DNA of 21,799 nucleotides, taken from a virus. Location: positions 1 to 21,799 of IMG/VR virus record IMGVR_UViG_3300047352_000520; one strand, written 5' to 3'. The notes beneath the pieces were generated by a model. The model was given only the letters and a program-made list of their open reading frames with translations. It ran no database searches and was not told the DNA's origin. Within the stretch, counting starts at the first letter, position 1; every line of letters begins with the position of its first letter. Below are positions 1,507-21,411 of the stretch, piece by piece. The position numbers and the translations under genes were made by a program.

Positions 1507-1878
1507 TCAGAAGCGGTAGGTGGCACCAATCTTGGTACCCAGTGTAAGGGTATCCACGTCAAATTCCTGATCTTCCGTGAGGAAGGCGACTTCTCCGTAG
1601 AGTTCGAAGGATTCTGAGACATCGGCAACGACACCAAATTTACCGGACACTTCAGTTTCCAAGTCTTCATCTTCAACAGAGATAAAGGCAGGACCTGCTT
1701 GTACATATAGGCTAACAGTTTCGCTAGCTTCGAATTCGTAACCAGCGTGGACTTCAGTCACAGCGGCAGTGAAGTCGTTACCAACCCATCCTGCATTGTT
1801 CTCAATGTTGGCGTAGGGACCAGCGAAAGCAGGAGCAGACAAAGCAGACAGAGCTGCAACAGCAATAATAGATTTCAT
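1507..1878 (-). CDS. Secreted outer-membrane beta-barrel-like protein
   Basis: The 123-residue product begins with a clear Sec signal peptide: MKSII, a hydrophobic Ala/Leu core, and a cleavage site AFA|GP after residue 19. The mature part alternates polar and apolar residues (VSLYVQAGPAFISV, FELYGEVAFL, LTLGTKIGATYRF) and ends in an aromatic-x-Phe C-terminus, the signature recognised by the BAM outer-membrane insertion machinery. It has one dedicated promoter candidate upstream and a strong terminator downstream, so it is expressed as a single gene, like many lysogenic-conversion or superinfection-exclusion morons. At about 104 mature residues it is shorter than most 8-stranded barrels. The function is unknown; blocking of a receptor or a surface change in infected cells is an inference. 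Confidence 0.75.
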   Translation of the reverse strand: MKSIIAVAALSALSAPAFAGPYANIENNAGWVGNDFTAAVTEVHAGYEFEASETVSLYVQAGPAFISVEDEDLETEVSGKFGVVADVSESFELYGEVAFLTEDQEFDVDTLTLGTKIGATYRF

Positions 1879-2539: not shown

Positions 2540-2989
2540 ATGTCTAGAATTAGAGCCCTAACTTCGTTGTTGGATCCCAAGAAACTAGCAGCTATGGGTA
2601 AACCAGCTGCAAAGCAGATGGATCCTCGCAGATTCCAAGCAATGGCAAAACAGAAGGGATTAGTTTCTTCTTCTGGAGGCACATCTAGAACAGCACGTCC
2701 TGTATCAGCGCCTGAAGCTGCTGCTCAAGATTTAAATCAACAGTATGTGAATGAGATTTTGGGATACGACGTGCAGAAAAAGTACGACGACATCTTAAGC
2801 ACCAAAGGATTCTTGATGGATGATGGATTAACAGAAGCAGGTCTGCTTGCTGCGGGTGCTTTAGGCGTTGGTGGATTAGGAGGCATGGGACTGGGAAACA
2901 TGATGGGCGGGGGCAATGAAGGTCTTACTAAAGAAGACCTTATGGCTATGCAAGAAGAGAACCCTGGACTAATGGTTCGCTACGCCTAG
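2540..2989 (+). CDS. Gly/Ala-rich protein, possibly a minor virion protein
   Basis: A 149-residue protein of unknown function. The N-terminal half is basic with many Lys, Pro and Met (DPKKLAAMGKPAAKQMDPRR). The second half has a Gly/Ala/Leu-rich hydrophobic stretch (LLAAGALGVGGLGGMGLGNMMGGG), which is common in phage internal or tail-associated proteins that meet membranes. An alternative TTG start at 2528 would add four residues; ATG at 2540 is preferred. It runs against the DNA polymerase gene, and the two stop codons share the four bases CTAG (2986-2989). Confidence 0.6.
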   Translation: MSRIRALTSLLDPKKLAAMGKPAAKQMDPRRFQAMAKQKGLVSSSGGTSRTARPVSAPEAAAQDLNQQYVNEILGYDVQKKYDDILSTKGFLMDDGLTEAGLLAAGALGVGGLGGMGLGNMMGGGNEGLTKEDLMAMQEENPGLMVRYA

Positions 2990-4287
2990 TGAGTAGCTGC
3001 CCAGTTATCTCCATGGTCAGCGCATGCACCAATAGGTACACGCAGGTTGTAGTACTTACCAGCTTCAGGTGCTGCTGCTTCTAACAGCATCTTCATACGG
3101 TCAACTTCAGCAGGGACGACAGACATCTGAACTTCATCGTGCACGTAAGCGCAGCGAGTGTAGTCACGGTCATATGTGAGACCTGCATCATCAATCATCT
3201 GCTGCCCGATTACCACCCATCGCTTGGAGATGATTGCTCCGGCAGACTGAAGTAAGAAGTTGGGACTACTGTGCTCAGCACGACAGAATATAGGACGCCC
3301 ATCAAGGCCCCTAAGGCGACCAGTTGAGCGAACTTTGAGTTTAACTGCATCTACTAATGGCTCCAATCCAGGGATAGCGTCAAGGAATTTGCGGCGTAAC
3401 TCACCGCCAAGTGTTTTCTTCTGTGCATCTGACAGCTCAGGACTGAGACTATGTCCCAGCTTCACGTCACCGGCACCATATATGAACGCATACGTGAGGG
3501 TCTTGACCTGTGTGCGTGTACATCCCACACGGTCAGCGTTCTGCTGATGAATGTCGCCGTTGACGACAACCTCAGCGAAGGCTCCTTCATCAAAGGCTGC
3601 TAGGTAGTGCCCGAGCAGTCTTAATTCCAGTCCTTCAAGGTCAGCGCCAACCATGACATGACCAGGGTGAGGAACAAATAGTTCCCGTGCCCATGGTGCA
3701 GATACGACCTGGCCCAAGTTGGGACCACGGTGAGCATTTCGCCCAGTTTGTGTTGACAGTGTGCAGCTGTGGTGGATACAGCCGTCGCCCTCAATAGAGT
3801 TGAACCAAGAGTTGGTTCCCTCCGACAGCTGACCAAGCCACTTCTGCAGCGTCAACAAACGGATAAACATCTCACACTCGTCATGCAGTTGCTGGTTACC
3901 AGCAGACAACGCAACGTCTTTCACTTCTGAGAGTGTTGCTTCATCGACCTTGGGTTTACCAGTCTCTGTAACCCGTGTAAAACGAGCACCACGGAAGGTC
4001 TGCAGTGCCCACGCTATGTTCTGACGTGACGTTGGATTGAAGTCAGTCAGGCGTGTCATAGGAGCACCTGCTACATAGCCACGCTTCTTATCTGCACGCT
4101 TGGGAGTAAACACTTTACCCGGTACGTACAGATAGATTTTAGAGATAGCCTCAGTAATAGAATCAAACTCATCTTGGAGCTGTGAACGTACGCGTACAGC
4201 AGCATCCATATCAAAGCGAAACCCTGATGCTTCTTGCTGGGCCATCAACATGGCCATATCCATTTCGAGTTTGATGTAATCAGGCAT
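2986..4287 (-). CDS. DNA polymerase family A, polymerase subunit
   Basis: Polymerase half of a T7-type DNA polymerase. It shows TGRNAHRGPNLGQV (residues 181-194), motif A GADLEGLELR with metal-binding Asp216, motif B RTQVKTLTYAFIYG (Lys262, Tyr266 at the position of E. coli Phe762 and T7 Tyr526), and motif C YVHDEV with Asp384. T7 gp5 is one 704-residue chain; here the 3'-5' exonuclease is encoded by the next gene upstream, overlapping by 8 nt. At 433 residues it is about the size of the T7 polymerase domain without the 76-residue thioredoxin-binding loop, so that loop is probably absent. It would copy phage DNA, presumably with the exonuclease as a separate subunit. Confidence 0.95.
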   Translation of the reverse strand: MPDYIKLEMDMAMLMAQQEASGFRFDMDAAVRVRSQLQDEFDSITEAISKIYLYVPGKVFTPKRADKKRGYVAGAPMTRLTDFNPTSRQNIAWALQTFRGARFTRVTETGKPKVDEATLSEVKDVALSAGNQQLHDECEMFIRLLTLQKWLGQLSEGTNSWFNSIEGDGCIHHSCTLSTQTGRNAHRGPNLGQVVSAPWARELFVPHPGHVMVGADLEGLELRLLGHYLAAFDEGAFAEVVVNGDIHQQNADRVGCTRTQVKTLTYAFIYGAGDVKLGHSLSPELSDAQKKTLGGELRRKFLDAIPGLEPLVDAVKLKVRSTGRLRGLDGRPIFCRAEHSSPNFLLQSAGAIISKRWVVIGQQMIDDAGLTYDRDYTRCAYVHDEVQMSVVPAEVDRMKMLLEAAAPEAGKYYNLRVPIGACADHGDNWAATH

Positions 4288-4810
4288 AAGTTTCCATTCG
4301 TCGTTGTAGTAGTTCGTATAAGCGAAGCGTCACTTGGGTATCTTGAATGCAGTAATCAAGCATCTCTGGAGTGTAAGTACTCCAGTCATTGCTTTCATTC
4401 TTAGCAAAGTCTCCCTTGAAACACTTTAAGCGATAGCCCCATGCTTCGAGAGAGTGACGTCCATACAAACGCTGGGGCATACCCTCAGGACGACGCTCAT
4501 AATCGCGGTCACTGATGTTGGGATAGTAGAGGCGAGACATAACAAGAGTGTCTTGTACTTCGCCTTGGAAATCAAAGTCAGGGAACTGTTCTTTGAGTAG
4601 TGGAATGTCATAGCCAGCTATGTTGTGACCGATAAGAGCGTCAGCTTTTTCAAGTTGCTTGACGCCTTGCACGACAGCACGCTCAGGCTTGTAGTCAAAG
4701 ACAATAGGTTCGTCAGCACTGTTCATGTCACGCATGACAATGCAATGGATTGTGGAACCACGACGCAGGAGGCCAGTGGATTCAAGGTCAAACAGGAGGT
4801 TTGTAGTCAT
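4280..4810 (-). CDS. 3'-5' proofreading exonuclease subunit (DnaQ-like)
   Basis: A 176-residue protein that corresponds to the exonuclease domain of T7 gp5. It has Exo I FDLESTG (Asp8, Glu10), Exo II GHNIAGYDIPLL (Asp68), QDTLVMSRL (Asp87) and Exo III YCIQD (Tyr153, Asp157), with the T7-like block GRHSLEAWGYRL in between. All catalytic acids are present, so it should be active. It overlaps the polymerase gene by 8 nt and the deaminase-like gene by 23 nt, consistent with coupled translation and complex formation. The domain break falls where T7 gp5 changes from exonuclease to polymerase. Confidence 0.93.
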   Translation of the reverse strand: MTTNLLFDLESTGLLRRGSTIHCIVMRDMNSADEPIVFDYKPERAVVQGVKQLEKADALIGHNIAGYDIPLLKEQFPDFDFQGEVQDTLVMSRLYYPNISDRDYERRPEGMPQRLYGRHSLEAWGYRLKCFKGDFAKNESNDWSTYTPEMLDYCIQDTQVTLRLYELLQRRMETYA

Positions 4811-7254: not shown

Positions 7255-8061
7255 TTAAAATTCTTCCGTGGGGTTTTCATCGTTATCTGTTGGAGCTCGA
7301 TGTAAACCTTCCAGTTCAGTATTGAATTGAGATGGATGCCTACCTGCAAGCATGTCAGTAATAACTGCTTCAAACCTATCGCCAAACCCTGTATCAGGAT
7401 TGAGCATCAGGTCTTCACGTGCATTGAGCTGCTCGGTTGCATCTAACTTCTCTTGTTCTTTGAGTGCTTCTTCTAGAACGTACTCAGCAATCTGTTGCTT
7501 GAGTGTGTGTAGTTCACAAGCAACCTCAAAGCTTTCAAGATAGCTGTCGTGGTCAACAAAGACACCAACGTTCTGTGGAATAAGGTGAAACGGATTACAG
7601 CAATACTTATTGCCGCAAGTAGTTTTGACTCCTGTATAGCCTAAATCACCCCAAGTGAACCACATAGCAACACGTTGTGGGTGATGTTGAGTCGAACTAG
7701 CAATGCCGTGCCGCCTCCAAGAGAACTGTGGTTGCTTGGTGCGCTTGTTGATACAACCATTCCAATCCCAGCAGTCATCAGGAGCACCCATATCTACTTG
7801 AGACCAGAACTTAAGAGCACGTTTCCTGTGCTTCTTAAGCAGACGGTCAATGTCAAATGACATACGACCTTCACGAGCAGATGCAACACAACGCGTACAC
7901 GCTTGGTGACTGTCGTATCGCATGCTGTGAGTAGAGAATCTACCTAACGAGTGACCTGTATATAGACAAAGCTCACCCTCTTCTGCTGTGTTAGAGAGTT
8001 GCAAGATACGTCTACCGTATGCGTGACCACCACGCCGTTTAGAGGGTTGAGCTTCAGCCAT
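7255..8061 (-). CDS. HNH_3-like DNA-binding protein with altered active site
   Basis: A 268-residue protein. An N-terminal zinc-finger-like set (Cys32, His37, Cys55, Cys58) is of the kind often attached to HNH nucleases. The core from about 96 to 162 follows HNH_3: DDCWDWNGCI, HHPQRVAMWFTWGDLG, then VKTTCGNKYCCNPFHLIP. The Asn-Pro-x-His-Leu part is intact, but the first catalytic His (HxC in the family) reads TTC. The protein may bind DNA without cutting it, or use another residue. The C-terminus is helical and acidic and ends TEEF, like several operon neighbours. It is coupled to the upstream gene by TAATG with AAGGAG 7 nt before the start. Confidence 0.7.
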   Translation of the reverse strand: MAEAQPSKRRGGHAYGRRILQLSNTAEEGELCLYTGHSLGRFSTHSMRYDSHQACTRCVASAREGRMSFDIDRLLKKHRKRALKFWSQVDMGAPDDCWDWNGCINKRTKQPQFSWRRHGIASSTQHHPQRVAMWFTWGDLGYTGVKTTCGNKYCCNPFHLIPQNVGVFVDHDSYLESFEVACELHTLKQQIAEYVLEEALKEQEKLDATEQLNAREDLMLNPDTGFGDRFEAVITDMLAGRHPSQFNTELEGLHRAPTDNDENPTEEF

Positions 8062-8291
8062 TAGAATTCTCCTTCAGGTTTTACGTGAACACCACCATGA
8101 GTTGGGTACTGCTGTTCAGTAGGTAGTGCCTGCATTTGATGGCTAAGTTTGTATTCATAACGAGTACTATTCTCATACTTGATACGAACAAGCTTGGCAC
8201 GAGGTGTGTAGTACTCAGGACGCCCAACAACTAGTGCTGTTCTACCTTCAATGTCAACGCGCAAGCCAATTTTGATGTCTTTTGAATGCAT
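8061..8291 (-). CDS. Small SH3/KOW-like hypothetical protein
   Basis: A 76-residue protein beginning with a beta-rich part (IKIGLRVDIEGRTALVVGRPEYY, KLVRIKYENSTRYEYKLSH) that resembles a small SH3- or KOW-type barrel by pattern only. AAAGG lies about 9 nt before the ATG. It ends KPEGEF, and the codons of that tail form the ribosome binding site for the next gene (GAAGGAGAATTCTAATG). A role in the replication operon is inferred from context. Confidence 0.6.
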   Translation of the reverse strand: MHSKDIKIGLRVDIEGRTALVVGRPEYYTPRAKLVRIKYENSTRYEYKLSHQMQALPTEQQYPTHGGVHVKPEGEF

Positions 8292-8344
8292 ATATTTATA
8301 CCTTTGTAGTTAAAGTGTAGTGAAAAAGTGTTATTTATGTGAGG

Positions 8345-8494
8345 CTACGGCTCAGTCTCAGAGCTTTCACTTAGCTCATAGAGATGATAGTCATAAGTAT
8401 CATCTCCAAACATGATGTGACAAGCTTCATCAAAGCCATCAGCTTCAATAGTTACCTCGTCCCCATCATTGTGATTAATAAAAGTCCAGTACAT
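8345..8494 (-). CDS. Acidic microprotein (49 aa)
   Basis: A short gene between the primase and the 76-residue gene. Its ATG shares one base with the primase stop (TAATG), the same coupling used at six other junctions here. The product begins MYWTFINHNDGDEVTIEAD, has an aromatic middle (YDYHLYELSE) and is strongly acidic throughout. No family was recognised. It is followed by a 53-nt gap that holds AT-rich sequence but no clear gene. Confidence 0.6.
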   Translation of the reverse strand: MYWTFINHNDGDEVTIEADGFDEACHIMFGDDTYDYHLYELSESSETEP

Positions 8495-10725
8495 TAGAAG
8501 TCGTTAAGGATATGGTCTTCAGATAGTGGGTCATCTTTAGGTCGTTGCCATACACGCACAGACTTAGACTTGCCAGTAGCAGGGTCTTTACGTGAGGTAA
8601 CTAGACGACGCCAGCCCATCGTCTGTAGAACATCTGCAATACGACGTGCTTCTCTACGTCCTTGGTTACGTGGGTCAAGTTCCAGTGCATGTGTAAGAAC
8701 ATCAGCAGCTGTAACTTCTTCCCGAATTGCTACGTAACTAGCAACTTTATCCATCCAGGGGTCAGGGTCACCGAACTCTTGGATGTACTCAGAGATAGCA
8801 GCAATCTCACCACTGTTGAACTCGTAGCCCATACCACCACGGTATGCAGCTACTGCAGATGCCCATAGGCAATCACGCTCTTCAGACAGTTGCTTCCAAG
8901 GAATCTGAAATCCACCACCAATTTCTAGTGGTACAAAGCGTCTGTTGCCTGTGCTATCTACAAGGAACTGGTTCCTATTGGTAGTACCAATCATCACAAA
9001 CCGACGAGGCAGTTTGGATGGCAGAGATGCATATGGATAACGCACTTCATCAACTCTGCTAGTCACAAGGTTCTTAAAGTTCTCAATGTTCCTAATGTTG
9101 AAGTAGTTATCAATCTCAGGTAGCTCTAGCAACCAAGCAACGTGCAGCCTGTACTGCTCTTTCATCAGCGTGTCTAGTGGTGTACTGACTTCTGAGAACA
9201 GAAGGTCAGGCACTAGGTTGCGACTGAACATTGACTTACCAACGCCCTGTGCACCCACAAGAATGGGTAGCCAGGACATAGAGCAGCCAGGGTTATAAGC
9301 ACGGGCAACTGCACCAATCATCATGCGTTGCATGGCAAGGGTGGCAATGCTGTGCTTGTTACCTAGGAATACTTCACCGACACGGTCCCAATCTTTGTGA
9401 GGGATTGCATGAGCAGCACAGTGGTCAAGGTAACGACGGATAGGACAGTAGCTATTCTTCTGCGCTGCATATTGAATAGCAGACTTGATGCGAGGCTCTG
9501 GGATAAATATCCCGTGCTCACATGCCATCTTGGTAGTCATTAAGTCAAGGTCATTACCTTGAAGTGCAACCGTCTTACCTTGAGCATCGGTGTATTCAAT
9601 AGCACCCGTCAGCTCATTCTTGCGTAGGTCAGTCAAGATACCCTTGACTTTCTCTACATCATCTTCACGCTCTTTAGCAGCAGCTTCAGAGCTTTTCTTC
9701 GGGCGACCTCTACGCTTGACTTCTTTAGAGTCAGGTAACGGTTCCGGTTCAAATTCCATATTGTTTTCTCCTGTAGCATTGGAAATGACATCATCAAAAC
9801 TAATTAGTGGGTCTGTTTCTGTATAACCGACAGCTCCACCTACAGCACCAAACCTCAGTTCAGGTGGTAGGTGTCTAGTCCAATTAGCGTCTTGCTTCTT
9901 TGCAAGCGAATACAGTTTAGTATGACCTGCATACTTACCGAGACCTTTCCATTTAAAAGGTCTAATGTTTTCTTCTTTGTGACCATGATGACCACGGATA
10001 ACCCAGTCAACCCAGTCATCAAATAAGACGCCACCTACACCAGCGCAGGCAGCCATGACGGGCACATAGTAAGACTCGTACTCATCGTCGCTAGTAGGCT
10101 CCAGAAACTCACGTAGCAACCACTGACAGCGTCGTACATCAATGTCTTCGCAATCAGTACGTATGAAATCCGCAGGCTCTTCGTAGTCAATATCAGCCAA
10201 CAAGAACGCGGGAACCATCGCGCCATCATTAAGACGGCTAGTACTAGCTGAACTGCCGTACCACAGGCGCTCAGGCTTTTGACCGCAGTTATCTTTAAGC
10301 GATTCAAGTCCAAGGTCTGCTAGCAAACGATTGACAATCAACCAATAAGCACCACGGTGTTGTGATGCAGATTCCAAATCAGTCTCCAGTGGAAACAGAG
10401 CACGGAACCTATGCTCCTTATCGCTATGACTTGCAGATGTATAGGTAGCTAAGCACCAGTCACGTGCAGTCTGAGTAGCCCAGAATGCATCGAGTGTTGT
10501 ATCACCATCAATGTCAATAACAATAAGGTTGCTACCTGCTGCATTGTCTGCATTGCGGTAGCGCTCAAGGAAATGAGTAGCGCACCACCCATAACCTTTA
10601 GCAACCCATCCCAGTAGATAGTCAACATCTACTAGGACATTCTTCCAACCCCTAGCTACTAGCTGCGGGTTCTCTTTGTTCTTGCAGTTCTTGTTTACTG
10701 CAATCTTCAGTATCTTCTTCGTCAT
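8494..10725 (-). CDS. AEP primase-polymerase fused to VirE-like helicase
   Basis: A 743-residue replication protein with three parts. Residues about 30-190 form an archaeo-eukaryotic primase: IVIDIDGD with metal-binding Asp71 and Asp73, and SASHSDKEHRFRALFPL with the active-site His. Residues about 195-290 look like a PriCT domain. Residues about 450-650 form a VirE/SF3-like ATPase with Walker A GAQGVGKS (491-498), Walker B WLLELPEID (531-539) and the TTNRNQFLVDSTGNRRFVPL block. The linker contains KRRGRPKK (337-344), an AT-hook-like minor-groove binder. It would make primers and unwind DNA, and replaces the T7 gp4 type. It ends LNDF. Its start overlaps the nuclease gene by 74 nt. Confidence 0.9.
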   Translation of the reverse strand: MTKKILKIAVNKNCKNKENPQLVARGWKNVLVDVDYLLGWVAKGYGWCATHFLERYRNADNAAGSNLIVIDIDGDTTLDAFWATQTARDWCLATYTSASHSDKEHRFRALFPLETDLESASQHRGAYWLIVNRLLADLGLESLKDNCGQKPERLWYGSSASTSRLNDGAMVPAFLLADIDYEEPADFIRTDCEDIDVRRCQWLLREFLEPTSDDEYESYYVPVMAACAGVGGVLFDDWVDWVIRGHHGHKEENIRPFKWKGLGKYAGHTKLYSLAKKQDANWTRHLPPELRFGAVGGAVGYTETDPLISFDDVISNATGENNMEFEPEPLPDSKEVKRRGRPKKSSEAAAKEREDDVEKVKGILTDLRKNELTGAIEYTDAQGKTVALQGNDLDLMTTKMACEHGIFIPEPRIKSAIQYAAQKNSYCPIRRYLDHCAAHAIPHKDWDRVGEVFLGNKHSIATLAMQRMMIGAVARAYNPGCSMSWLPILVGAQGVGKSMFSRNLVPDLLFSEVSTPLDTLMKEQYRLHVAWLLELPEIDNYFNIRNIENFKNLVTSRVDEVRYPYASLPSKLPRRFVMIGTTNRNQFLVDSTGNRRFVPLEIGGGFQIPWKQLSEERDCLWASAVAAYRGGMGYEFNSGEIAAISEYIQEFGDPDPWMDKVASYVAIREEVTAADVLTHALELDPRNQGRREARRIADVLQTMGWRRLVTSRKDPATGKSKSVRVWQRPKDDPLSEDHILNDF

Positions 10726-11464
10726 CTCCTATCGAATGAAATTGTTTACATCTTGTCAGGAACTTCGCTTCAAATCTATCAAGCTGGTCGCTATCAATAA
10801 AGATGCCTTGGGATATCTCTGGGGTAGAGACAATAATCAAAGCAACGTCACATTTATAACCAGTACGTTCAGCTAATGCGAGGCGGTAAGCCGCCATTTG
10901 TTGTGCACACTTTTGGTACTTCCTGAATCCACCAAAGCCCATACGGTCACCCTTCTCTGGGAAGCAGTTCATGTATGGACCGTTGCTTGTCTTAAAGTCA
11001 GCGATGATTTTTACACCACCAATCTCTCCAATCAAGTCAGGACAACCAGCATATAGATGCTCGGTGCTCCAGACATATGCAACTTCTCTGTCATCACTAC
11101 GAAGGTGATTCCAATCTGGGCGAAGTGGACGTTCGCTCCAATGAATTGTATCAAACCAATCTAGATAAGGTGTAAGACCACTCCAGAAATCTTGATACTC
11201 ATCAGGTACACCTGGGTCCATGCCACGTAGGTAGTTTTCACAACCCAAGTGGATAGCAGAGCCACGTTTCGATGCTGCTTCAAGGGCACCAGGATTATTT
11301 TTTTGCCAGGTTCTCAATCCTGCTTTAGATTTTTCTGTCTCGGTAGCTGAGAGAACCGTGGTAACAGAAGGCATATACAGACCAGAGCAGAGATACTTTC
11401 GGTAACCCTGCGCCGTCTGTATACGGTAAGGCTTATCTACAGGACCAAGGTTCTCGTCAGACAT
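10652..11464 (-). CDS. PD-(D/E)XK exonuclease (RecB/Cas4-like)
   Basis: A 270-residue nuclease with the RecB/Cas4 motif series: SKRGSAIHLGCENYL (GxxxH), AGCPDLIGEIGGVKIIADFKTS (PD...D-x-K), and QMAAYRLALAE (Q-x3-Y). All catalytic residues are present. In phages such enzymes digest host DNA or trim ends for recombination and replication. It starts with TAATG coupling to the upstream gene, with GAGGA 6 nt before the ATG. The last 25 residues are acidic and overlap the primase start. No Cas4-type cysteine cluster was seen, so it is a plain RecB-like nuclease. Confidence 0.88.
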   Translation of the reverse strand: MSDENLGPVDKPYRIQTAQGYRKYLCSGLYMPSVTTVLSATETEKSKAGLRTWQKNNPGALEAASKRGSAIHLGCENYLRGMDPGVPDEYQDFWSGLTPYLDWFDTIHWSERPLRPDWNHLRSDDREVAYVWSTEHLYAGCPDLIGEIGGVKIIADFKTSNGPYMNCFPEKGDRMGFGGFRKYQKCAQQMAAYRLALAERTGYKCDVALIIVSTPEISQGIFIDSDQLDRFEAKFLTRCKQFHSIGDDEEDTEDCSKQELQEQREPAASS

Positions 11465-11832
11465 TAGTAATCCTCGTCAGTCATCTGGTCTTGGAAGTTC
11501 TGGCTATACGTTGCGCCTGTATCTGTAGGTGTGGTTTGCTGTTGAAACATCGCATACATCTGCCCCACTGCATTGCCCACTGCTTCAGATACTTGACCAA
11601 CAGCAGCTACTTGTTGACGAAGCTGGTCAACTTCTTGACGCAATGCAATGACGTGATCCATCAACGAGGGAGGGCGTTGGATAGGAGCCGGAGGAGTTGG
11701 TACGCCACCAGGCACAGTAGGAATAAGCCCAGTAGGTTGAACAGGAACGGCATTTTGTTTTGCTTTCTCGATAATGTCTGCGATGCGTTGTTGCATTTCA
11801 GGTGGCAAGCCTTCGGTATTAATGTTGCTCAT
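11464..11832 (-). CDS. Pro-rich coiled-coil protein with acidic end
   Basis: A 122-residue protein of unknown function. Its middle is rich in Pro (VPVQPTGLIPTVPGGVPTPP), followed by a heptad-like coiled coil (HVIALRQEVDQLRQQVAAVGQ). It ends QMTDEDY, an acidic-aromatic tail shared with several operon neighbours. AAGGATG lies about 9 nt before the start, and the gene is coupled by TAATG on both sides. The layout would suit an adaptor that links replication proteins, but this is inferred. Confidence 0.65.
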   Translation of the reverse strand: MSNINTEGLPPEMQQRIADIIEKAKQNAVPVQPTGLIPTVPGGVPTPPAPIQRPPSLMDHVIALRQEVDQLRQQVAAVGQVSEAVGNAVGQMYAMFQQQTTPTDTGATYSQNFQDQMTDEDY

Positions 11833-12017
11833 TAGAATTCATCCTTAAGTTGTTTGGTTGCAATTTCACCTACGATTTCTTCGAAGGCACGGCGTAGTTC
11901 ATACTCCAAGTCATCTCGGTCAGCTTTAGAACGAGTGACTGTAATGGGAGGGAGTGTCAGTGTGGCATCTGCTTGGAATAAACCAAGCTCATTTTTAGCA
12001 ACAGTAAGTTCAATCAT
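11832..12017 (-). CDS. Small acidic-tailed hypothetical protein
   Basis: A 61-residue protein: a beta-rich start (MIELTVAKNELGLFQADATLTLPP) and an acidic helix (DRDDLEYELRRAFEEIVGEI), ending QLKDEF. Its start overlaps the previous stop by ATGA, and its stop overlaps the next start by TAATG. No family was recognised. Confidence 0.65.
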   Translation of the reverse strand: MIELTVAKNELGLFQADATLTLPPITVTRSKADRDDLEYELRRAFEEIVGEIATKQLKDEF

Positions 12018-12205
12018 TTTGTAATTAGTTCTTCTAGTGTTTGAGGTGAGACATTTTTACATTTGTAACCAGGGTAATGTCTCTTAACCCAATGAGGTGC
12101 AGCGATTGACCCCATCCAACTATCAACCGATACATATACAGTATCGGTATCTTCATCAACAAGATGCGGTCGGTAGTTACTAGAACTCGGCTTGACTTTC
12201 TTCAA
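12014..12205 (-). CDS. Small hypothetical protein
   Basis: A 63-residue basic protein starting MKKVKPSSSNYRPHLVDED, with an aromatic and basic middle (APHWVKRHYPGYKCKN). It overlaps the upstream gene by 26 nt and the downstream gene by 4 nt. No family was recognised. Unlike most neighbours it does not end in an acidic-aromatic tail. Confidence 0.6.
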   Translation of the reverse strand: MKKVKPSSSNYRPHLVDEDTDTVYVSVDSWMGSIAAPHWVKRHYPGYKCKNVSPQTLEELITK

Positions 12206-12920
12206 CTTTTTTCTTTGCAGTAGTAGGAGTTACGTGGGCTCCGCGTTTGTCGGTTCCACCAGCTGGAAGACCTTTAGCGTCAACTTGCTTACCGTCGAAT
12301 GGGTCTTTTCCTTCAAAGAAGTTAGGTAGCCAGATGGTGTCTTTCTCTTTGTCCCAAGACGCTTTAATCTTATCTGGTACTTTACGGACTTTTGGAAGGA
12401 TGCTGTATGAAGTTTCCAGACCGGCTCCCTTACGGCTAATCTTAATCGAAAAATTAGCAAGTCCATCTTCGGTCCAAGTGTAGTCTTCAATCTCTTGAAG
12501 AATCTCGGTGAGTTGTTCTCGTAGTGATTTTTGTTCAATGAATAGTACCTCTAAACGACCACGGGCAGCGCTGGTTGCTACCCAAGCAAGGAACCTCCGT
12601 GGCTTAACGAAGGTGCCGTCGATTTTGGGACGGTCGGGTTTGGACCAGTCGGTTTCTCGGGCGATGTCATCCGGTTGCCCAGGGTGACTGCGAGTAACGA
12701 CGTAACCAGCAAAACCAAGTTCACCATTATCACGGACTTTTTCAGATGCGTATTGCCAGCCGACGATGGCATGACCTGTGTCATAACAACCGAGTAGTCG
12801 GAACTCTTCTGATTCTCCATCTTTAAGTGAGCTAGGTTTCCAGTAAGGTTGTGCTTCTTTGGTTTCAATTTTATCTTTAGGAGCCTCCAACATTTCGGGA
12901 GGCAGAACTTGTAGCGTCAT
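12180..12920 (-). CDS. Candidate ssDNA-binding protein
   Basis: A 246-residue protein. The region of about residues 35-175 looks like an OB-fold ssDNA binder: SLKDGESEEFRLLGCYDTGH at the front, RFLAWVATSAARGRLEVLFIEQ in the middle, and FSIKISRKGAGLETSYSILP, a segment resembling the (F)KI.R.G.GL.T.Y.V.P block of phage single-strand binding proteins. The remainder is Lys/Gly-rich and ends SQAEF. It is the first gene of the replication operon after the divergent gap at 12921-12983. A different replication-accessory role is possible, because a second OB-fold SSB lies at 13235-13891. Confidence 0.5.
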   Translation of the reverse strand: MTLQVLPPEMLEAPKDKIETKEAQPYWKPSSLKDGESEEFRLLGCYDTGHAIVGWQYASEKVRDNGELGFAGYVVTRSHPGQPDDIARETDWSKPDRPKIDGTFVKPRRFLAWVATSAARGRLEVLFIEQKSLREQLTEILQEIEDYTWTEDGLANFSIKISRKGAGLETSYSILPKVRKVPDKIKASWDKEKDTIWLPNFFEGKDPFDGKQVDAKGLPAGGTDKRGAHVTPTTAKKKVEESQAEF

Positions 12921-12983
12921 ATTAGTATTATTTAGACACTACAAATATAAGTAATAGAATAGATAAATGTGAGCTATATAGTT
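12921..12983. promoter_or_regulatory. Divergent promoter region
   Basis: AT-rich gap between the leftward replication operon and a rightward small gene. Possible -10 boxes for the rightward gene are TATAAG and TAGAAT around 12945-12960. The leftward side has TAAATAATAC. Neither has a clear -35. The TAGTG element near the leftward side (GTAGTGTC on the minus strand) resembles the TAGTGAAA at 5383-5390 and 8317-8326. The grouping is tentative. Confidence 0.35.
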
Positions 12984-13154
12984 ATGAGATTAGCAGGTGA
13001 AATACCATTAGATGTAGCACAGTTAATTGCTGCTGTTGATACAACTAACTGGCCTTCAATCAAAGAATCTAAAAAAGCACCTGCAAACTATAGATACGAT
13101 GAGCACATGCAGGAGATGGTGCCAAGTATTCCTGCCCGGTTAAGAAAGGCTTGA
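12984..13154 (+). CDS. Small hypothetical protein on the plus strand
   Basis: A 56-residue protein starting MRLAGEIPLDVAQLIAAVDT. A longer reading from GTG at 12969 adds five residues. It stands alone between two leftward operons and ends 16 nt before a hairpin. No family was recognised. Its isolation resembles the DUF3310 gene at 5398, and such singletons are often separately controlled. Confidence 0.5.
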   Translation: MRLAGEIPLDVAQLIAAVDTTNWPSIKESKKAPANYRYDEHMQEMVPSIPARLRKA

Positions 13155-13164
13155 AAATTTTTGG

Positions 13165-13194
13165 CATTAAAAATGGCCTCGCACGAGACCATTT
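13165..13194 (-). terminator. Terminator between convergent genes
   Basis: AAATGGCCTCG/CGAGACCATTT (13171-13181 and 13184-13194, one mismatch, 2-nt loop) lies between the stops at 13154 and 13235. Read on the minus strand the stem runs into CCATTTTTAATG, a short T-run, so it best fits termination of the leftward SSB operon. Confidence 0.65.
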
Positions 13195-13234
13195 GGGGTA
13201 CAGTTAATCAGTTAATCCGACTGGTTCACAGTCA

Positions 13235-13891
13235 TCAGTAGTCTGGGACTGGGTCCACTTCTGCGTATCCTTTCGCAGCTCCTGTCGCTGCTTTTCGGCT
13301 ACCTTGCTCACGGTCTTTTCTAGTCGTGAAGTCGTTCGCAACGATTGCTCGATAAGGGGAAGTATCACCCTCTTTGCGATACTCACGCAGATATCCTTGG
13401 ACGCAGATAGGACGCCCTTTGCGGACGCGCTCAGTAAGTTTGCCTTTTCTCGAATCATGGGTCTCCATAAATAACCAAGTAGTTACATCACTATTATCTA
13501 GTGTGGTGCCAATCTTAATGGCAATCTGTGAGTTCTTACGCTCTTTGATTTCATCTGAACCAAAGAATGCATTACCAAGCACAACTTGGTTACAGAACAT
13601 ATCTTGAGGAATATTAGGTTCAATCGTTGTGACAATTAAATCCATAGGCTGACTGGTGTCATCACTGAATACAAGGTTGCCAGTAATCAACGCACGGGTG
13701 CTTTGCTTCCAACCTTTAAAGGTGTCAAGCTTTGGACCTTGTCGGTTATAGCAGAGGAGTCGTAGTTTGACCTCTCCAGCACTATTACCAGAGGGGATAA
13801 CAGCATCAGCACCGCAATAGTCAAGCCCATAAGCGTTGATTGGATCTGCAACGAAGTCTCGTAGTTCAACGGTTGCTGCAATAAAGTTCAT
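13235..13891 (-). CDS. Single-stranded DNA-binding protein, two OB folds
   Basis: A 218-residue protein that looks like two SSB-type OB folds in tandem. The first (about 1-95) has AVIPSGNSAGEVKLRLLCYN and GWKQSTRALITGNLVFS. The second (about 95-190) is closer to bacterial SSB: CNQVVLGNAFFGSDEIKERK, TTWLFMETHDSRKGKLTERV, then RKGRPICVQGYLREYR. It would coat ssDNA at the phage fork. The tail is Gly/Ala-rich and ends EVDPVPDY, comparable to the acidic tail of SSB that binds partner proteins, but with a Tyr instead of Phe at the end. Last gene of its operon. The TATAAATA before its ATG is weak promoter evidence at best. AGAGG lies 20 nt upstream. Confidence 0.75.
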   Translation of the reverse strand: MNFIAATVELRDFVADPINAYGLDYCGADAVIPSGNSAGEVKLRLLCYNRQGPKLDTFKGWKQSTRALITGNLVFSDDTSQPMDLIVTTIEPNIPQDMFCNQVVLGNAFFGSDEIKERKNSQIAIKIGTTLDNSDVTTWLFMETHDSRKGKLTERVRKGRPICVQGYLREYRKEGDTSPYRAIVANDFTTRKDREQGSRKAATGAAKGYAEVDPVPDY

Positions 13892-13927
13892 TATTTATAG
13901 TCATTGGTCAGCCTCTAATATAATCAC

Positions 13928-14560
13928 TCAACCCCACATTGCGCGAGCAACATTTGGAAGTTGAGTATCAAGAATTTCACCAACACTACGAGCGATTGAC
14001 ATATGCTCTCGTTGTGTTCCGTTGTTACCGCGTAGGTCAACGTAATGAAGCCAACTGCGAATGGTGCCTGACATATACAGCCGAGTCACAGTGTTAATAG
14101 GCAAGACTGAACGAGCACATTCTTTAGCTACACCAGAGTGCAGCAGTGATTCGTACAGCTCAACGCCTTCACGGAAGTGTTTGTCAATACGGTCTTCGTA
14201 GTACTCAGAAGTTTCACTTGGCAGGTCATCGATTGAGTTTTGCCTGTTCTCATCATCTTGACGACGGAGCTTTGGAAGCACAGTCGCAAAGGTATCAGTA
14301 GGAATTGCATACCGTTGGCTGAACTCTTGGAAAGAGAAGCTACGGTGACGCAGAATTTGTGGAGAGATAGCACGTGTAGTGTGAATCTCAACGCACATAG
14401 ACGCCATTTCAAATGGTGACCAGTGCTTGTGTTTAATCAGATAACGTAGAAGCCTTTCGCTATTAGGGTTATCTTCGTTTTTAGGATTAGAGACACGGGC
14501 AATCTTAGCGATTAGTGCCTCTGCATCTGGTGTGACCCAGATAAGTTTAGCGTCGTGCAT
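13928..14560 (-). CDS. thyX: Flavin-dependent thymidylate synthase
   Basis: A 210-residue ThyX, which makes dTMP from dUMP using FAD and NADPH. The signature RHR-x7-S is exact (Arg71-His72-Arg73 to Ser81, RHRSFSFQEFS). Other family parts include HKHWSPFEMASM and the C-terminal substrate-binding NGTQREHMSIAR. The length is typical. It supplies thymidine for phage replication together with the ribonucleotide reductase encoded upstream. Its start shares one base with the stop of the 34-residue microprotein (TAATG). Confidence 0.95.
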   Translation of the reverse strand: MHDAKLIWVTPDAEALIAKIARVSNPKNEDNPNSERLLRYLIKHKHWSPFEMASMCVEIHTTRAISPQILRHRSFSFQEFSQRYAIPTDTFATVLPKLRRQDDENRQNSIDDLPSETSEYYEDRIDKHFREGVELYESLLHSGVAKECARSVLPINTVTRLYMSGTIRSWLHYVDLRGNNGTQREHMSIARSVGEILDTQLPNVARAMWG

Positions 14561-14664
14561 TATTTATAAGAGTTAATTAATACTCGTAGTTGTTTAACAG
14601 TACAGTGTTCTGCTTTCTGCTTAACAATAGTAACGAGTTTTTCAATGTAGTCTTGTTTAGTCAT
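14560..14664 (-). CDS. Basic microprotein (34 aa) coupled to thyX
   Basis: A 34-codon gene starting MTKQDYIEKLVTIVKQ and ending LINSYK. Its ATG overlaps the upstream stop by 8 nt (ATGACTAA) and its stop overlaps the thyX start by TAATG. Both junctions are the types used throughout the operon, which makes it more than a chance frame. The product is helical and basic; no family was recognised. It explains the TATAAATA just before thyX as codons (Tyr-Lys-stop). Confidence 0.5.
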   Translation of the reverse strand: MTKQDYIEKLVTIVKQKAEHCTVKQLRVLINSYK

Positions 14665-17990: not shown

Positions 17991-18215
17991 TTATTTTTCT
18001 CTTAGTGTGATGCGACCTCGGTCAAGGTCATATGGACTGAGTTCTACAGTGACGCTATCTCCAACTAATAGTTGAATCTTGCGTGTAATAAGTTTACCCG
18101 ATGCACGGCATAAACAGATGTGACCTTCAGGGTCTTGTAACTCAACACGGAAATATCCGTTACCATCTTCTCTAAGGATATGTCCCTTAGCAGATATTAC
18201 ATTAGCTTTAGCCAT
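17991..18215 (-). CDS. infA: Translation initiation factor IF-1 homologue
   Basis: A 74-residue protein that matches bacterial IF-1 over its whole length: MAKANVISAKGHILRE at the start, GYFRVELQDPEGHICLCRAS in the middle, and GDSVTVELSPYDLDRGRITL at the end (E. coli: MAKEDNIEMQGTV, MFRVELENGH, GDKVTVELTPYDLSKGRI). It is one S1-type OB fold of the usual size. The AHISGK segment reads CRASGK. IF-1 binds the ribosomal A site during initiation. Phage-encoded IF-1 is rare, known from some very large phages. It could favour translation of phage mRNAs or bind RNA in another way. It is contiguous with its neighbours on both sides. Confidence 0.92.
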   Translation of the reverse strand: MAKANVISAKGHILREDGNGYFRVELQDPEGHICLCRASGKLITRKIQLLVGDSVTVELSPYDLDRGRITLREK

Positions 18216-18416
18216 TTAAAATCCTTGTCCAGATTTACTCTTATCTTTTTTTGGTTCATATCCCAGTGATACCTTGAGCAATTGCTCGTCAGTTTCACGA
18301 GAAAGCAGCATGCACATTTGGTCTACCGCCATAGCGAATATCCCTGCGTCTGATAACTGCTTAACTCTGTGTTGAGCTAAATCAAATATAAGCTCTTCTC
18401 TCTCGTTCTGTGTCAT
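18216..18416 (-). CDS. Small helical hypothetical protein
   Basis: A 66-residue helical protein starting MTQNEREELIFDLAQHRV and ending in a basic stretch (KKDKSKSGQGF). ATG at 18416 is preferred over 18470 because it cuts the overlap with the upstream gene from 89 to 35 nt. Its stop directly abuts the IF-1 start. No family was recognised. Confidence 0.6.
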   Translation of the reverse strand: MTQNEREELIFDLAQHRVKQLSDAGIFAMAVDQMCMLLSRETDEQLLKVSLGYEPKKDKSKSGQGF

Positions 18417-18834
18417 TAGTTGTAAGTCTATTTTCAAATTGATGGTGAGTTGTAATATCAACTGGGTCATCCCACATCTGCATTCCTACAGATTTAAAGA
18501 AGCGGGTAGTGACAATTCGTCCGTTAACAACGTGCTCATATCGCAAGCAGTCATAGTGACCGCCTCCGCAATTAGATTCCCAGTGCATATCTAAATGCTC
18601 TTGTGTATTTGCTTCACAAGGCGCAGCATCTTCACCGTCATCCATATCGTTGTAGTAGAACCAACCACGCCAGTAGTCATCTTCATTTAGGGTAACAACT
18701 TCTAACCAGTCTGCTTCGGTATCATCCATATACCTGTCGTATGCATATTCAGCATCAGGTTCAGCAAGGTCAGGAATCAGATGGTCAATGGAAGGATCGT
18801 CGGAATGGATAATTCCGTAAACATATTTTGTCAT
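18382..18834 (-). CDS. Acidic, Trp/Tyr-rich hypothetical protein
   Basis: A 150-residue very acidic protein (PDAEYAYDRYMDDTEADWLE, YYNDMDDGEDAAPCEA) with many Trp and Tyr and a Cys/His cluster (HWESNCGGGHYDCLRYEH) that might bind metal. No family was recognised. Its acidic character would suit a DNA mimic or an inhibitor of a DNA- or RNA-binding protein, but that is speculative. It is coupled upstream by ATGA. Confidence 0.6.
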   Translation of the reverse strand: MTKYVYGIIHSDDPSIDHLIPDLAEPDAEYAYDRYMDDTEADWLEVVTLNEDDYWRGWFYYNDMDDGEDAAPCEANTQEHLDMHWESNCGGGHYDCLRYEHVVNGRIVTTRFFKSVGMQMWDDPVDITTHHQFENRLTTNDTERERRAYI

Positions 18835-19178
18835 TCAGGATGTGCGTATGTGTAAGCGTCTAGCGTTGCCGGCAGGTGTTCGATGATGCTATTAGCCCCA
18901 ACGAATCTTTCAACTGACTGCTCGACATAGTCGCAGTCTTCGTCGCCATCGGCATCGAGTTGGCAAGAGACTTCCTCATGTACGACAACGAGCGTCGGTG
19001 TGAGTTCCACCGATAGCTCCTCTGCAAGCGCCGTACGAGCGCCTGAGGCCGTCTTAAGAGGCACAAAGTGGAGTTCAGCTTGCTCAGCTTCCGTGAGAGT
19101 TTTGACGTGGTCTTTGAGACGTGTGCAAGGGGCACAAGACTCTTGAGTAAATACATAAAGCTCGTAAGTTTTCATCAT
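18831..19178 (-). CDS. Thioredoxin/glutaredoxin-like protein
   Basis: A 115-residue thioredoxin-fold protein. The redox pair is ESCAPC (Cys15, Cys18), followed by RLKDHVKTL and the cis-Pro loop ELTPTLVVV. The C-terminal 40 residues are acidic and longer than in small glutaredoxins. In phages such proteins often reduce ribonucleotide reductase, whose genes lie downstream. A role as polymerase processivity factor, as host thioredoxin does for T7, is unlikely, because the polymerase lacks room for the thioredoxin-binding loop. The ATG is doubled; either may start. Confidence 0.78.
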   Translation of the reverse strand: MMKTYELYVFTQESCAPCTRLKDHVKTLTEAEQAELHFVPLKTASGARTALAEELSVELTPTLVVVHEEVSCQLDADGDEDCDYVEQSVERFVGANSIIEHLPATLDAYTYAHPE

Positions 19179-19181: not shown

Positions 19182-19490
19182 TTAAGCAGGTGTTCCGTCG
19201 GTGTAATAAAAACCACCGATACAGTTGTCGCTATTAGATATTACTAAATGTCGTGCGTGTTGGTAACACTTCATACCCATATGATATGAAATCATGACAG
19301 GGTCACCGACATTTACTTGGTCTAAACGACTGCATAGAATCAAACGGTTAGCAGGTGGTTTACGTTTGTATTGAATCTCGGCTTCGTAACCGAGGTGCTC
19401 GTCTTCTTCCATCGTGTTTGGATTGAAGACAGTACGCATTTCGGGAGCAGTCACAGGGATTGCTTCCATTTCAGTGTTGAGTTTGAACAT
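19182..19490 (-). CDS. Hypothetical protein
   Basis: A 102-residue protein starting MFKLNTEMEAIPVTAPEM. ATG at 19490 shares one base with the upstream stop (TAATG). The frame extends to 19553, but that would overlap the upstream gene. The C-terminal half contains several Cys and His (CSRL, MKCYQHARHL, NCIGGFYY). No family was recognised. Confidence 0.65.
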   Translation of the reverse strand: MFKLNTEMEAIPVTAPEMRTVFNPNTMEEDEHLGYEAEIQYKRKPPANRLILCSRLDQVNVGDPVMISYHMGMKCYQHARHLVISNSDNCIGGFYYTDGTPA

Positions 19491-19933
19491 TAGTAGGAAG
19501 TTAGTAAGTAAACTGCAGCAGCAGTTAGCACAAGCAAACTGAAGTAACGCCACCCTGCATAATCATCTTGGATATGAGGAGGTGTATCGACAAAGCGAAA
19601 GCTACTGCCGACAAATTCTGATTTTACTTCTGGTGCTAAATACTGCGTAATAGCAGATGAATACATCTGATTTACAATGGTTTGAACCATCTCTTTAGAT
19701 AGTTTGAAATATTCAGATTGAGGCACACGCACTTCTCCGTAGAACTTATGAAAGTATTTCTCTAGTTCACGGTAGTTATCGTGTTGCCAGTATCCGATAA
19801 TTTCTGTTTTGGTTCCTACAGCTAATGCTTTAAAGCGAGCAGTAGGGCTGGTTGTTATGCCTACTTTATAGCCACCAAACATAGTATCTCGTAAGAGATA
19901 AAGGTAGCCAGGCTTGTGTTCAATATTAATCAT
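19490..19933 (-). CDS. GIY-YIG/T5orf172-like protein with C-terminal membrane helix
   Basis: A 147-residue protein. Residues about 7-85 resemble the T5orf172 branch of GIY-YIG nucleases: PGYLYLLRD, YKVGITTSPTARFKALAVG, ELEKYFHKFYGEVRVPQSEYFKL. Arg and the tyrosines are present at family positions. The last 18 residues (YFSLLVLTAAAVYLLTSY) form a hydrophobic helix that should anchor it in a membrane, uncommon for this nuclease family. ATG at 19933 is chosen because an 8-nt overlap joins it to the repeated CSPKPMF coding segment. A longer reading to 20014 overlaps the upstream gene and is less likely. Confidence 0.6.
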   Translation of the reverse strand: MINIEHKPGYLYLLRDTMFGGYKVGITTSPTARFKALAVGTKTEIIGYWQHDNYRELEKYFHKFYGEVRVPQSEYFKLSKEMVQTIVNQMYSSAITQYLAPEVKSEFVGSSFRFVDTPPHIQDDYAGWRYFSLLVLTAAAVYLLTSY

Positions 19934-19955
19934 CAAACATAGGTTTAGGTGAACA
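19933..19955 (-). repeat. 23-nt direct repeat, copy 1 (codes CSPKPMF)
   Basis: It is identical to copy 2 (20150-20172) at 22 of 23 positions. Read on the minus strand in the frame of the preceding gene it gives Cys-Ser-Pro-Lys-Pro-Met-Phe-Asp-Asp-stop, but lies just after that gene's TAA. Confidence 0.8.
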
Positions 19956-20147
19956 TTAGTTTGAAGTAGCGATTTTTGTGGCAAGGTCACTGATTGATTC
20001 GTGCCCGTATTCACGTGCAGCTAATCGCCCTTGTTCAAAGTCATCAGATTCAATGGTGCCTTTGAAGTAGCGATAGAAAAAATCAATAGCTTGAACAGCT
20101 ATTAACTGTTCTTTGTCAGTAAGAATTACATGATGGTCAATCGTCAT
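19956..20147 (-). CDS. Small acidic protein, possibly truncated or read through
   Basis: A 63-residue protein starting MTIDHHVILTDKEQLIAVQA and ending DLATKIATSN. The stop TAA is followed in the same frame by nine more codons for CSPKPMFDD and a second stop at 19926-19928. These nine residues match the tail of the gene immediately upstream (CSPKPMFENDD). Either a mutation shortened the protein, or the TAA (context AAC TAA TGT) is read through. The second stop makes the normal 8-nt overlap with the next gene. Start at 20147 is chosen over the upstream ATG at 20183. No family was recognised. Confidence 0.6.
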   Translation of the reverse strand: MTIDHHVILTDKEQLIAVQAIDFFYRYFKGTIESDDFEQGRLAAREYGHESISDLATKIATSN

Positions 20148-20688: not shown

Positions 20689-21339
20689 TCAAAAGTCGAG
20701 TGCTTCCTCAACAGTGACGGTTGGTTCAGTAACAGAGACAGTCTCTACAGAACCGCCAGTGACGGAGTTGTGGATAATCTCTACAGCGTCACGCATGATT
20801 TTGAGTGAACGTGCAGTGTCACGGTCAGCCTTGGCTTCTTTGAGCTGGTCAGTCAGCATCTGACAGGACATCTTGTTACCCGCTTGGCGGATTGCAGAGA
20901 AGCATGGACGCATCTGTGACGTACCTTTCCAGGTGTCAAGAGTGAACGTCTGGTCAAGAGCGAACTCGTTGAACAAAGCCATCAAGCCAGACACGAGGTA
21001 CTGAGACCACAGTGTGGTGAGACCTGAGGTGAGCATGACTTGCCGACCTGCAGTGGATTCGATGTATACGTTGAGCTTGGTCGAGTTGAATGCACCGACG
21101 TCATCAGCAACAGTCAGTCCAACAAGACGGACGTTAGCGAGACGGGTGAGTGGCTTACCAGAGGGAAGCATCAAAGCAGATGGTGTCTGCTCATCACCGA
21201 GATACTGAAAGAACACAGCATCTGATTCTTTGTTAAGGCCAATGCCAATCATCATGTCAACGCTGGAGCTAGTACCAGCCATCTCGGAGATGAGCTCGGT
21301 AGCAAGAACGTTGGATGTAGGAGCAGTGGTTACGGTCAT
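20689..21339 (-). CDS. Hypothetical protein with acidic-aromatic tail
   Basis: A 216-residue protein of unknown function. The N-terminal two thirds are mixed alpha/beta (LATELISEMAGTSSSVDMMI, SGKPLTRLANVRLVGLTVAD), followed by a helical Lys/Arg-rich part (LTDQLKEAKADRDTARSLK) and a Val/Thr/Glu-rich tail ending TVEEALDF, like the replication proteins further downstream. ATG at 21339 is chosen; the frame runs to 21405, but that part crosses two leader hairpins and is unlikely to be coding. It is the first larger gene after the hairpins at 21363-21403. Confidence 0.65.
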   Translation of the reverse strand: MTVTTAPTSNVLATELISEMAGTSSSVDMMIGIGLNKESDAVFFQYLGDEQTPSALMLPSGKPLTRLANVRLVGLTVADDVGAFNSTKLNVYIESTAGRQVMLTSGLTTLWSQYLVSGLMALFNEFALDQTFTLDTWKGTSQMRPCFSAIRQAGNKMSCQMLTDQLKEAKADRDTARSLKIMRDAVEIIHNSVTGGSVETVSVTEPTVTVEEALDF

Positions 21340-21362
21340 GTGGTTGATATGTAAGTGAACAA

Positions 21363-21374
21363 GCCCATAAGGGC
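21363..21374 (-). promoter_or_regulatory. Leader hairpin GCCC-ATAA-GGGC
   Basis: A 4-bp GC stem with an ATAA loop, 24 nt before the gene starting at 21339 and 13 nt from the larger hairpin at 21388-21403. It might weaken or regulate readthrough into the gene. Confidence 0.35.
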
Positions 21375-21387
21375 ATAAGGAAATACA

Positions 21388-21403
21388 GCGCCCGCTAGGG
21401 CGC
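21388..21403 (-). terminator. Terminator-like hairpin GCGCCC-GCTA-GGGCGC
   Basis: A perfect 6-bp stem of the same family as the hairpin at 5785-5802, lying just after the stop at 21412 on the minus strand. The minus strand continues TGTATTTCC, so the T-run is weak; it may be a partial terminator. Confidence 0.6.
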
Positions 21404-21411
21404 ATAGGTGG

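Follow-up and report, generated by a model that had tools for sequence, protein, structure and literature searches.

Why should most proteins of one viral replication cluster, belonging to different families, end in an acidic residue followed by Phe or Tyr? The question is raised by the 21,799-base IMG/VR virus record IMGVR_UViG_3300047352_000520 (hereafter the window), whose leftward block encodes a split T7-like family A polymerase, ThyX, RNR, a MazG-like protein and a replication cluster at 7255-13891. Re-reading the translations bore out an earlier note on this DNA, according to which seven of the ten leftward genes of the cluster end in this dipeptide ([DE][FY], hereafter the tail): the 268-residue HNH-like nuclease (HNH, TEEF), g76 (GEF), the VapE-type primase-helicase (VapE, NDF), the Pro-rich protein Pro122 (DEDY), g61 (DEF), g246 (AEF) and the single-stranded DNA (ssDNA)-binding protein SSB (PDY). 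The other three members end in ETEP (g49), AASS (the exonuclease-like protein) and LITK (g63). The protein encoded at 20689 (g238) ends in LDF, also as claimed earlier, and has 238 residues when read from its longest start. Synechococcus or Prochlorococcus is the probable host, judging by sequence matches, because the best-listed matches of RNR and the polymerase are cyanophages and the window encodes a 'Cyanophage outer membrane protein' domain.

Conservation of the tail among relatives

With the primase-helicase, SSB, g246 and Pro122 as queries, 272 viral loci were obtained, and a scan of genome contigs added one more. Three of the viral scans comprised the best 80 of 113, 121 and 121 relatives, and a further scan the best 80 of 241, so that distant relatives are under-sampled. 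Identical C-terminal DNA was counted once, and matches that ended more than 45 residues short of the query's end or were interrupted by a stop codon were set aside (VapE 4/121, Pro122 2/102, g246 1/100, SSB 0/79, HNH 1/123, g61 0/29, g76 0/121, g238 9/41 and the exonuclease-like protein 45/110).

The tail was present in 76 of 79 SSB relatives (74 with Tyr and two with Phe, the remaining three ending in GY), whose end is mostly [TVIS]P[DE]Y, and in 98 of 99 relatives of g246 and 115 of 117 of VapE, all with Phe. Pro122 relatives displayed it in 99 of 100 cases (74 Tyr, 25 Phe), the last two residues being nearly fixed and the rest of the C-terminus variable. In the g238 family an aromatic end was found in 31 of 32 relatives and [DE][FY] in 18 of 32, other ends being, for example, EELF, EELPF and EELGF. 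The counts were 78/122 for HNH, 25/29 for g61 and 50/121 for g76. The remaining 28 families of the window, several of them with few relatives, showed no tail at all apart from a single case in the exonuclease-like protein (1/65); among them are the polymerase subunit PolA (0/45) and its exonuclease subunit (0/86).

The choice of aromatic residue follows the carrier: SSB uses Tyr in 74 of its 76 tails, g246, VapE, g61 and g238 use Phe only, and Pro122 and HNH use both. Since Phe and Tyr are one base apart, this partition looks selected. The four distant relatives of VapE that were inspected (APSE-1, vB_Pae_U5, S-2L and YeP5) all lack the tail, which rules it out as a general property of VapE-type helicases.

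Background frequency of the tail

As background we used four relative contigs of 78-87 kb, of unstated completeness, in which a simple caller rather than a gene finder predicted 550 open reading frames (ORFs). The tail ends 11/155, 6/131, 8/137 and 5/127 of these ORFs (30 in total), and 8 of the 11, 5 of the 6, 7 of the 8 and 5 of the 5 (25 in total) belong to the eight tail families, g61 and g76 included. Outside these families the frequency is 5/525 ORFs (0.95%). Assuming independent genes and a stretch not chosen post hoc, the probability of at least seven tails in ten proteins is 8e-13. Clustering of the ORFs without baits, across the window and the first 139 loci, produced 55 families with at least eight members; in eight of them at least 40% of the members carry the tail, and in the other 47 at most 10% do, 44 of these having none. 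Family clustering, contig background and the probability estimate together rule out chance as the cause. SSB, g246, Pro122 and VapE (the core set) stand out from the roughly 1% found elsewhere in these genomes, a comparison on which the earlier note had made its idea of a shared tail depend.

Selection on the protein and translational coupling

The tail might also be a by-product of translational coupling, the codons of a ribosome binding site (RBS) and an overlapping TAATG or TGATG spelling Glu-Phe or Asp-Phe. In the window four genes (g76, VapE, Pro122 and g61) have a stop codon that overlaps the next ATG, and a purine-rich, RBS-like stretch lies within the tail codons of g76, Pro122 and g61, not of VapE. 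The confounder that had been pointed out for three junctions is therefore real, and its weight is limited to g61 and g76. All 25 g61 tails overlap the next ATG, neither of the two non-overlapping relatives has the tail, and the last two codons show 0 and 1 synonymous changes, the last codon being the one without any. The g76 tail accompanies the overlap (42/72 with it versus 8/49 without). Coupling is sufficient for these two proteins and is refuted as a general cause for the other six of the eight carriers, most of which keep the tail where the stop does not overlap the next ATG: SSB in 70/73, g246 in 52/53, Pro122 in 80/81, VapE in 111/113, HNH in 77/120 and g238 in 12/16. The loss of uncoupled tails, which the earlier note had named as fatal to its idea, was thus not observed in the core set. 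The tail codons of g246, Pro122, VapE and SSB moreover carry 14-25 extra synonymous changes at the same sites, which coupling would not predict, and we give coupling hardly any credence as the general explanation.

Because related sequences remain after dereplication, we counted changes of residue class by parsimony on the family trees, comparing the last and last-but-one residues with the mean of positions 3-15. The changes were 1 and 0 versus 27.2 for g246, 1 and 1 versus 31.8 for Pro122, 1 and 2 versus 12.2 for VapE, and 0 and 2 versus 8.4 for SSB; g238 showed 1 at the last and 10 at the last-but-one residue versus 15. This comparison with the rest of the C-terminus, proposed in the earlier note, gave its sharpest contrast in g246, Pro122 and g238. 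HNH is less constrained (22 and 20 versus 36). Its tree requires at least 16 changes between presence and absence of the tail, below all 200 shuffles (mean 36, minimum 29): the tail is gained and lost by lineage. The counts for g61 (3 and 3 versus 4.5) and g76 (14 and 35 versus 18) do not establish these ends as selected tails. In terms of the shared tail proposed earlier, selection is supported for SSB, g246, Pro122, VapE and the aromatic end of g238, in part for HNH, and is not established for g61 and g76. In this group of uncultured marine viruses the tail is thus kept by selection on four proteins from separate families at least, and probably on a fifth.

Identity of the tail carriers

The carriers fall into separate sequence clusters and families; two of them were modelled. 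The AlphaFold2 (AF2) model of SSB (pLDDT 85) contains two OB folds and is closest to Thermus/Deinococcus SSB, with matches to 2ihf (Foldseek E 1.9e-8), 2fxq (VIA Z 13.9 over 177 residues) and 4dni, 'Editosome protein' (Z 16.2). As modelled, the protein fits the tandem-OB type. It has no PHROG or Pfam match, with none to PF00436 at E <= 0.001, and it lacks a DDDIPF-like bacterial tip; gp2.5 is absent from the folds listed for it, which excludes nothing. A profile match in the PDB to 2ynq, 'ESSB' (E 0.0012), was set aside because we take EssB to be a secretion-system protein.

The model of g246 is weak overall (pLDDT 64). Its three best VIA matches are the gp32 proteins of T4 and RB69 (Z 9.2, 9.1 and 7.6, the next being 4.9), the best one covering the gp32 core over 161 residues with a root-mean-square deviation of 4.1, to be read with the low confidence of the model. 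No Foldseek match reached E 0.001, and the profile found nothing among PDB sequences at E <= 1. Among its relatives, 50 of 70 match the ssDNA-binding family phrog_1192 (best E 1.7e-4), and the window protein itself does not. g246 is thus probably a gp32-like ssDNA-binding protein. Low-confidence segments (pLDDT below 50) comprise residues 213-232 and 236-246 of g246 and 199-210 of SSB. The g246 region also occurs, at 77% identity, on a contig of the metagenome-assembled genome 'bacterium TMED88', which is probably a mis-binned phage contig.

The primase-helicase matches PF05272 with E 6.4e-49 and 166.8 bits (cut-off 25), and HNH resembles HNH nucleases of phages. In Pro122 the Pro-rich middle is accompanied by a segment resembling a coiled coil, read off the consensus by eye. 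g238 has no PHROG or Pfam match, no DNA-binding domain was recognised in g238 or Pro122 in these searches, and their profiles gave nothing convincing among PDB sequences. SSB, g246, Pro122 and g238 had no match in an annotated phage collection, nor did PADLOC return any for four proteins. Relatives of g61 occur in P-SSM2/P-SSM5 and, beside a gp2.5-type SSB gene, in S-RIP2, whose copy ends in GIDD and has no tail.

A docking role for the tail

The acidic tails of T7 gp4 attach to the gp5 polymerase at basic patches on its front and in the thioredoxin-binding domain, and processivity drops when they are removed, according to published work (PMC12593628, PMC5997990, PMC8835902, PMC8472574). By analogy with T7 gp2.5 and gp4, the acidic-aromatic C-terminus would serve, at the end of a flexible linker, as a short tail for docking. 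Its bearers would be SSB, the gp32-like g246, VapE, Pro122 and g238, with HNH more loosely attached to the set; they would use a single socket jointly or in competition, PolA with its exonuclease subunit being its most likely site, and the polymerase would thereby be recruited and exchanged at the fork. Because the same chemistry occurs on different families in a genome with a T7-like polymerase, this polymerase is the likeliest receptor for all of them. The sequences show the tails, their conservation as protein, their confinement to this set of genes, the diversity of the carrier families and the pair of tails in T7 and cyanopodoviruses; that the tails bind, that they have one receptor and that the polymerase is this receptor is what we infer. 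The tails as T7-type docking plugs in enlarged form, with one socket and the split polymerase as main receptor, seem to us about evenly balanced between right and wrong.

Several observations weigh against this reading. PolA and g136, whose ends are of another kind, likewise conserve their last residues, and some upstream positions of SSB and VapE change as little as the tail, which leaves the sharp contrast to g246, Pro122 and g238; conservation alone is therefore not special. The position of the T7 hairpin K587-R591, which we take to be the front basic patch, is gapped in all 44 aligned polymerases of the group, and the thioredoxin-binding domain is missing from the polymerase sequences of the window, Syn5 and S-EIV1. 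Reuse of the T7 patches is thereby ruled out, and the socket must differ. PolA is not net basic, and the use of Tyr in SSB against Phe only in VapE, g246 and g238 may mean more than one socket. Among S-EIV1-like phages, which have a T7-like polymerase, none of 42 families reaches 40% of members with the tail; S-EIV1 itself has an SSB ending in DEPF, and two of its 123 coding sequences (CDS) have a [DE][FY] end, with a replication function annotated for neither. phiKMV has none in 26 CDS. A T7-like polymerase therefore does not imply tails. SP6 has three in 29 CDS (gp18, DEDAEY; gp20, EEEEF; and a 65-residue protein), its primase-helicase being without one. The two SP6 genes lie at 13216-14022 (gp18, 268 residues) and 14359-14727 (gp20, 122 residues), and as a guess gp18 might be an unannotated SSB.

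A charge-based look for the receptor found nothing. Seven positions of PolA, K290, R299, K300, K316, R320, R324 and R326, are Lys or Arg in at least 90% of the 45 PolA of the group and in at most 28% of 29 P-SSP7-like polymerases. This stretch adjoins the site corresponding to the T7 front patch; a further seven group-specific Lys/Arg positions lie elsewhere in PolA. That residues 290-326 form the socket is a guess from alignment.

Phe and Tyr may set the affinity of the tail or distinguish two sockets. More tentatively, the replisome could be built on a single plug, at least five proteins of different families presenting an exchangeable [DE][FY] tail to a single socket, located on a split polymerase without the T7 sites; Pro122, if oligomeric, would act as a multivalent adaptor, and the choice of Phe or Tyr would set priority. 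We regard this fuller scheme as possible, and on balance doubtful.

Alternative explanations

There might be no common receptor. The tails of the ssDNA-binding proteins and the helicase would then fold onto their own DNA cleft as DNA mimics, and Pro122, HNH and g238 would have separate partners. Fold or family points to binding of, or action on, ssDNA for three carriers, the aromatic residue used depends on the carrier, and the T7 SSB tail and ssDNA compete for one surface, as the title of a 2008 paper states. Self-inhibition predicts, however, that acidity should matter over a fixed aromatic residue, yet what is conserved is the last residue and the acidic one before it, the remainder of the acidic stretch being variable. 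It also leaves unexplained the ends of Pro122 and g238, neither of which shows a known DNA-binding domain, and we consider it unlikely, though not negligibly so.

The receptor could instead belong to the host, the phage tails mimicking the bacterial SSB C-terminus (DDDIPF) and capturing host SSB-binding replication and repair enzymes. The general chemistry is the same, an acidic stretch with a terminal Phe (PMC5872125), the SSB model has the bacterial tandem-OB fold, and one g238 relative ends in EELPF and one HNH relative in EDLPF. Nearly all of the core set, however, has an acidic penultimate residue instead of Pro, SSB has Tyr for Phe, and DF ends occur on SSB and primase-helicase in T7 and the cyanopodoviruses, which encode a polymerase of their own, all of which makes capture of host enzymes improbable.

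Stability or localisation signals apart from replisome docking, for example protection from host proteases, are very improbable: a C-terminal dipeptide is a typical site for them, yet families outside the set lack the tail, with ThyX, RNR, the MazG-like protein, IF-1 and the exonuclease-like protein having it in no or one relative.

If the docking reading holds, the same end on several families, together with a polymerase lacking the T7 regions, amounts to an evolutionary experiment on the essential part of the interaction. The C-terminus would also offer a criterion for spotting replisome members among phage proteins of no known family, such as Pro122 and g238, and the carriers supply short peptides that lend themselves to direct tests for a binding partner.

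Other features of the window

Coordinates are given in Table 1. g49 has few relatives and is perhaps a recent insertion or loss. The YRF end of the beta-barrel protein is probably the usual C-terminal Phe of outer-membrane proteins, unrelated to the acidic tails. Relatives of the small protein next to IF-1 mostly end in a Lys-rich stretch followed by Gly-Phe (aromatic end in 21/23, [DE][FY] in none); by its sequences this family is a different conserved C-terminus within the same phages. A thioredoxin-like protein is encoded in this window, whose polymerase is without a thioredoxin-binding domain.

Table 1. Positions of the tail carriers, the polymerase subunits and other features in the window.
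Feature	Position	Strand	Remarks
SSB, 218 residues; two tandem OB folds (model), low-confidence linker; PDY	13235..13891	-	Tail codons 13238-13243
g246, probable gp32-like ssDNA-binding protein, 246 residues; AEF	12180..12920	-	Tail in 98/99 relatives; gp32-like model match
g61, 61 residues; DEF	11832..12017	-	Tail confounded by overlap with next start codon
Pro122, Pro-rich middle and coiled-coil-like segment; DEDY	11464..11832	-	Tail in 99/100 relatives
Exonuclease-like protein, no tail	10652..11464	-	phrog_298 'exonuclease', E 3e-29; internal negative control or alternative receptor
VapE-type primase-helicase, 743 residues; NDF	8494..10725	-	PF05272
g49, 49-residue acidic ORF between primase-helicase and g76	8345..8494	-	Only 6 relatives
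g76, 76 residues; GEF	8061..8291	-	Tail follows overlap with next gene
HNH-like nuclease, 268 residues; TEEF	7255..8061	-	phrog_1872, E 8e-10
g238, protein without family match; LDF	20689..21405	-	216 residues from ATG at 21339
PolA, T7-like split polymerase subunit, no tail; proposed main receptor	2986..4287	-	45% identity to S-CBP42 and Syn5 polymerases
PolA residues 290-326, candidate socket	3310..3420	-	Group-specific conserved Lys/Arg
3'-5' exonuclease subunit of split polymerase, no tail	4280..4810	-	phrog_17, phrog_403
IF-1, phage-encoded translation initiation factor	17991..18215	-	PF01176, E 2.6e-15; 52 unique relatives in related loci
Outer-membrane beta-barrel protein (cyanophage), signal-like N-terminus	1507..1878	-	PF24653, E 1.3e-36; ends in YRF
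Small protein	18216..18470	-	
Thioredoxin-like protein	18831..19178	-	Pfam E 1.8e-5, under the curated cut-off
T5orf172/MUG113 nuclease-like domain	19490..20014	-	PF10544, PF13455

Comparison with known systems

T7 is the model for flexible tails that let replication proteins trade places at the fork, and the terminal Phe of gp2.5 reportedly matters. Two of the 55 T7 CDS examined end in [DE][FY], gp2.5 (DGDF) and gp4 (DTDF), and gp19 ends in EW. The window resembles T7 in having an acidic, aromatic-ended tail on SSB and primase-helicase, alongside a family A polymerase of the T7 type. It differs in having four to six carriers instead of two and Tyr besides Phe, an SSB that is tandem-OB-like and a helicase of the VapE type, with no match to the gp2.5 or gp4 families in these searches, and a polymerase split into two genes and lacking the T7 docking regions. 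In the literature searched, mostly open papers available in part, no report was found of more than two phage replication proteins with a common tail of this kind.

The polymerases closest to that of the window are those of the cyanopodoviruses (Syn5, P-SSP7, S-TIP37, S45-C4 and S-RIP2). The exonuclease and polymerase genes, which overlap in the window, are separate in P-SSP7, S-TIP37 and S45-C4, and are annotated likewise in P-SSP7 and S-TIP37. SSB ends in DF in five of five of these phages and primase-helicase in four of four examined. Tails end 2/34 CDS examined in Syn5, 2/29 in S-TIP37, 2/21 in S45-C4 and 2/27 in P-SSP7, always those of SSB and primase-helicase, and 1/11 in S-RIP2, its SSB. 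Of the 29 families in 80 P-SSP7-like loci, SSB (34/34) and primase-helicase (98% of 41) are the two that reach 40%, the next being 23% of 13 and 8% of 24. The cyanopodoviruses thus differ from the present group in having two tail families only, at least in the P-SSP7-like loci, and in an SSB and primase-helicase annotated as T7-type. As far as these sequences go, tails on two proteins are usual among the T7-like cyanopodoviruses compared here; the present group takes the pattern further, to proteins of other families.

The bacterial SSB C-terminus (DDDIPF) is similar in placing acidic residues before a terminal aromatic residue on an OB-fold protein. Here, in contrast, an acidic residue takes the place of Pro, SSB has Tyr, and the tail is found also on the helicase, the gp32-like protein and Pro122.

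In T4, one of 23 CDS examined ends in [DE][FY], that of the gp45 clamp. The low-confidence model of g246 matches the gp32 core, whereas T4 gp32 itself ends in DLLNDL, without an aromatic residue. T4 gp43, gp33 and gp55 share a C-terminal acidic/hydrophobic peptide for one hub. No clamp was matched among the window proteins (20 given to PHROGs and 20 to Pfam). The hub in T4 is the sliding clamp and its peptide motif differs, whereas for the tails described here the hub would most likely be the split polymerase.

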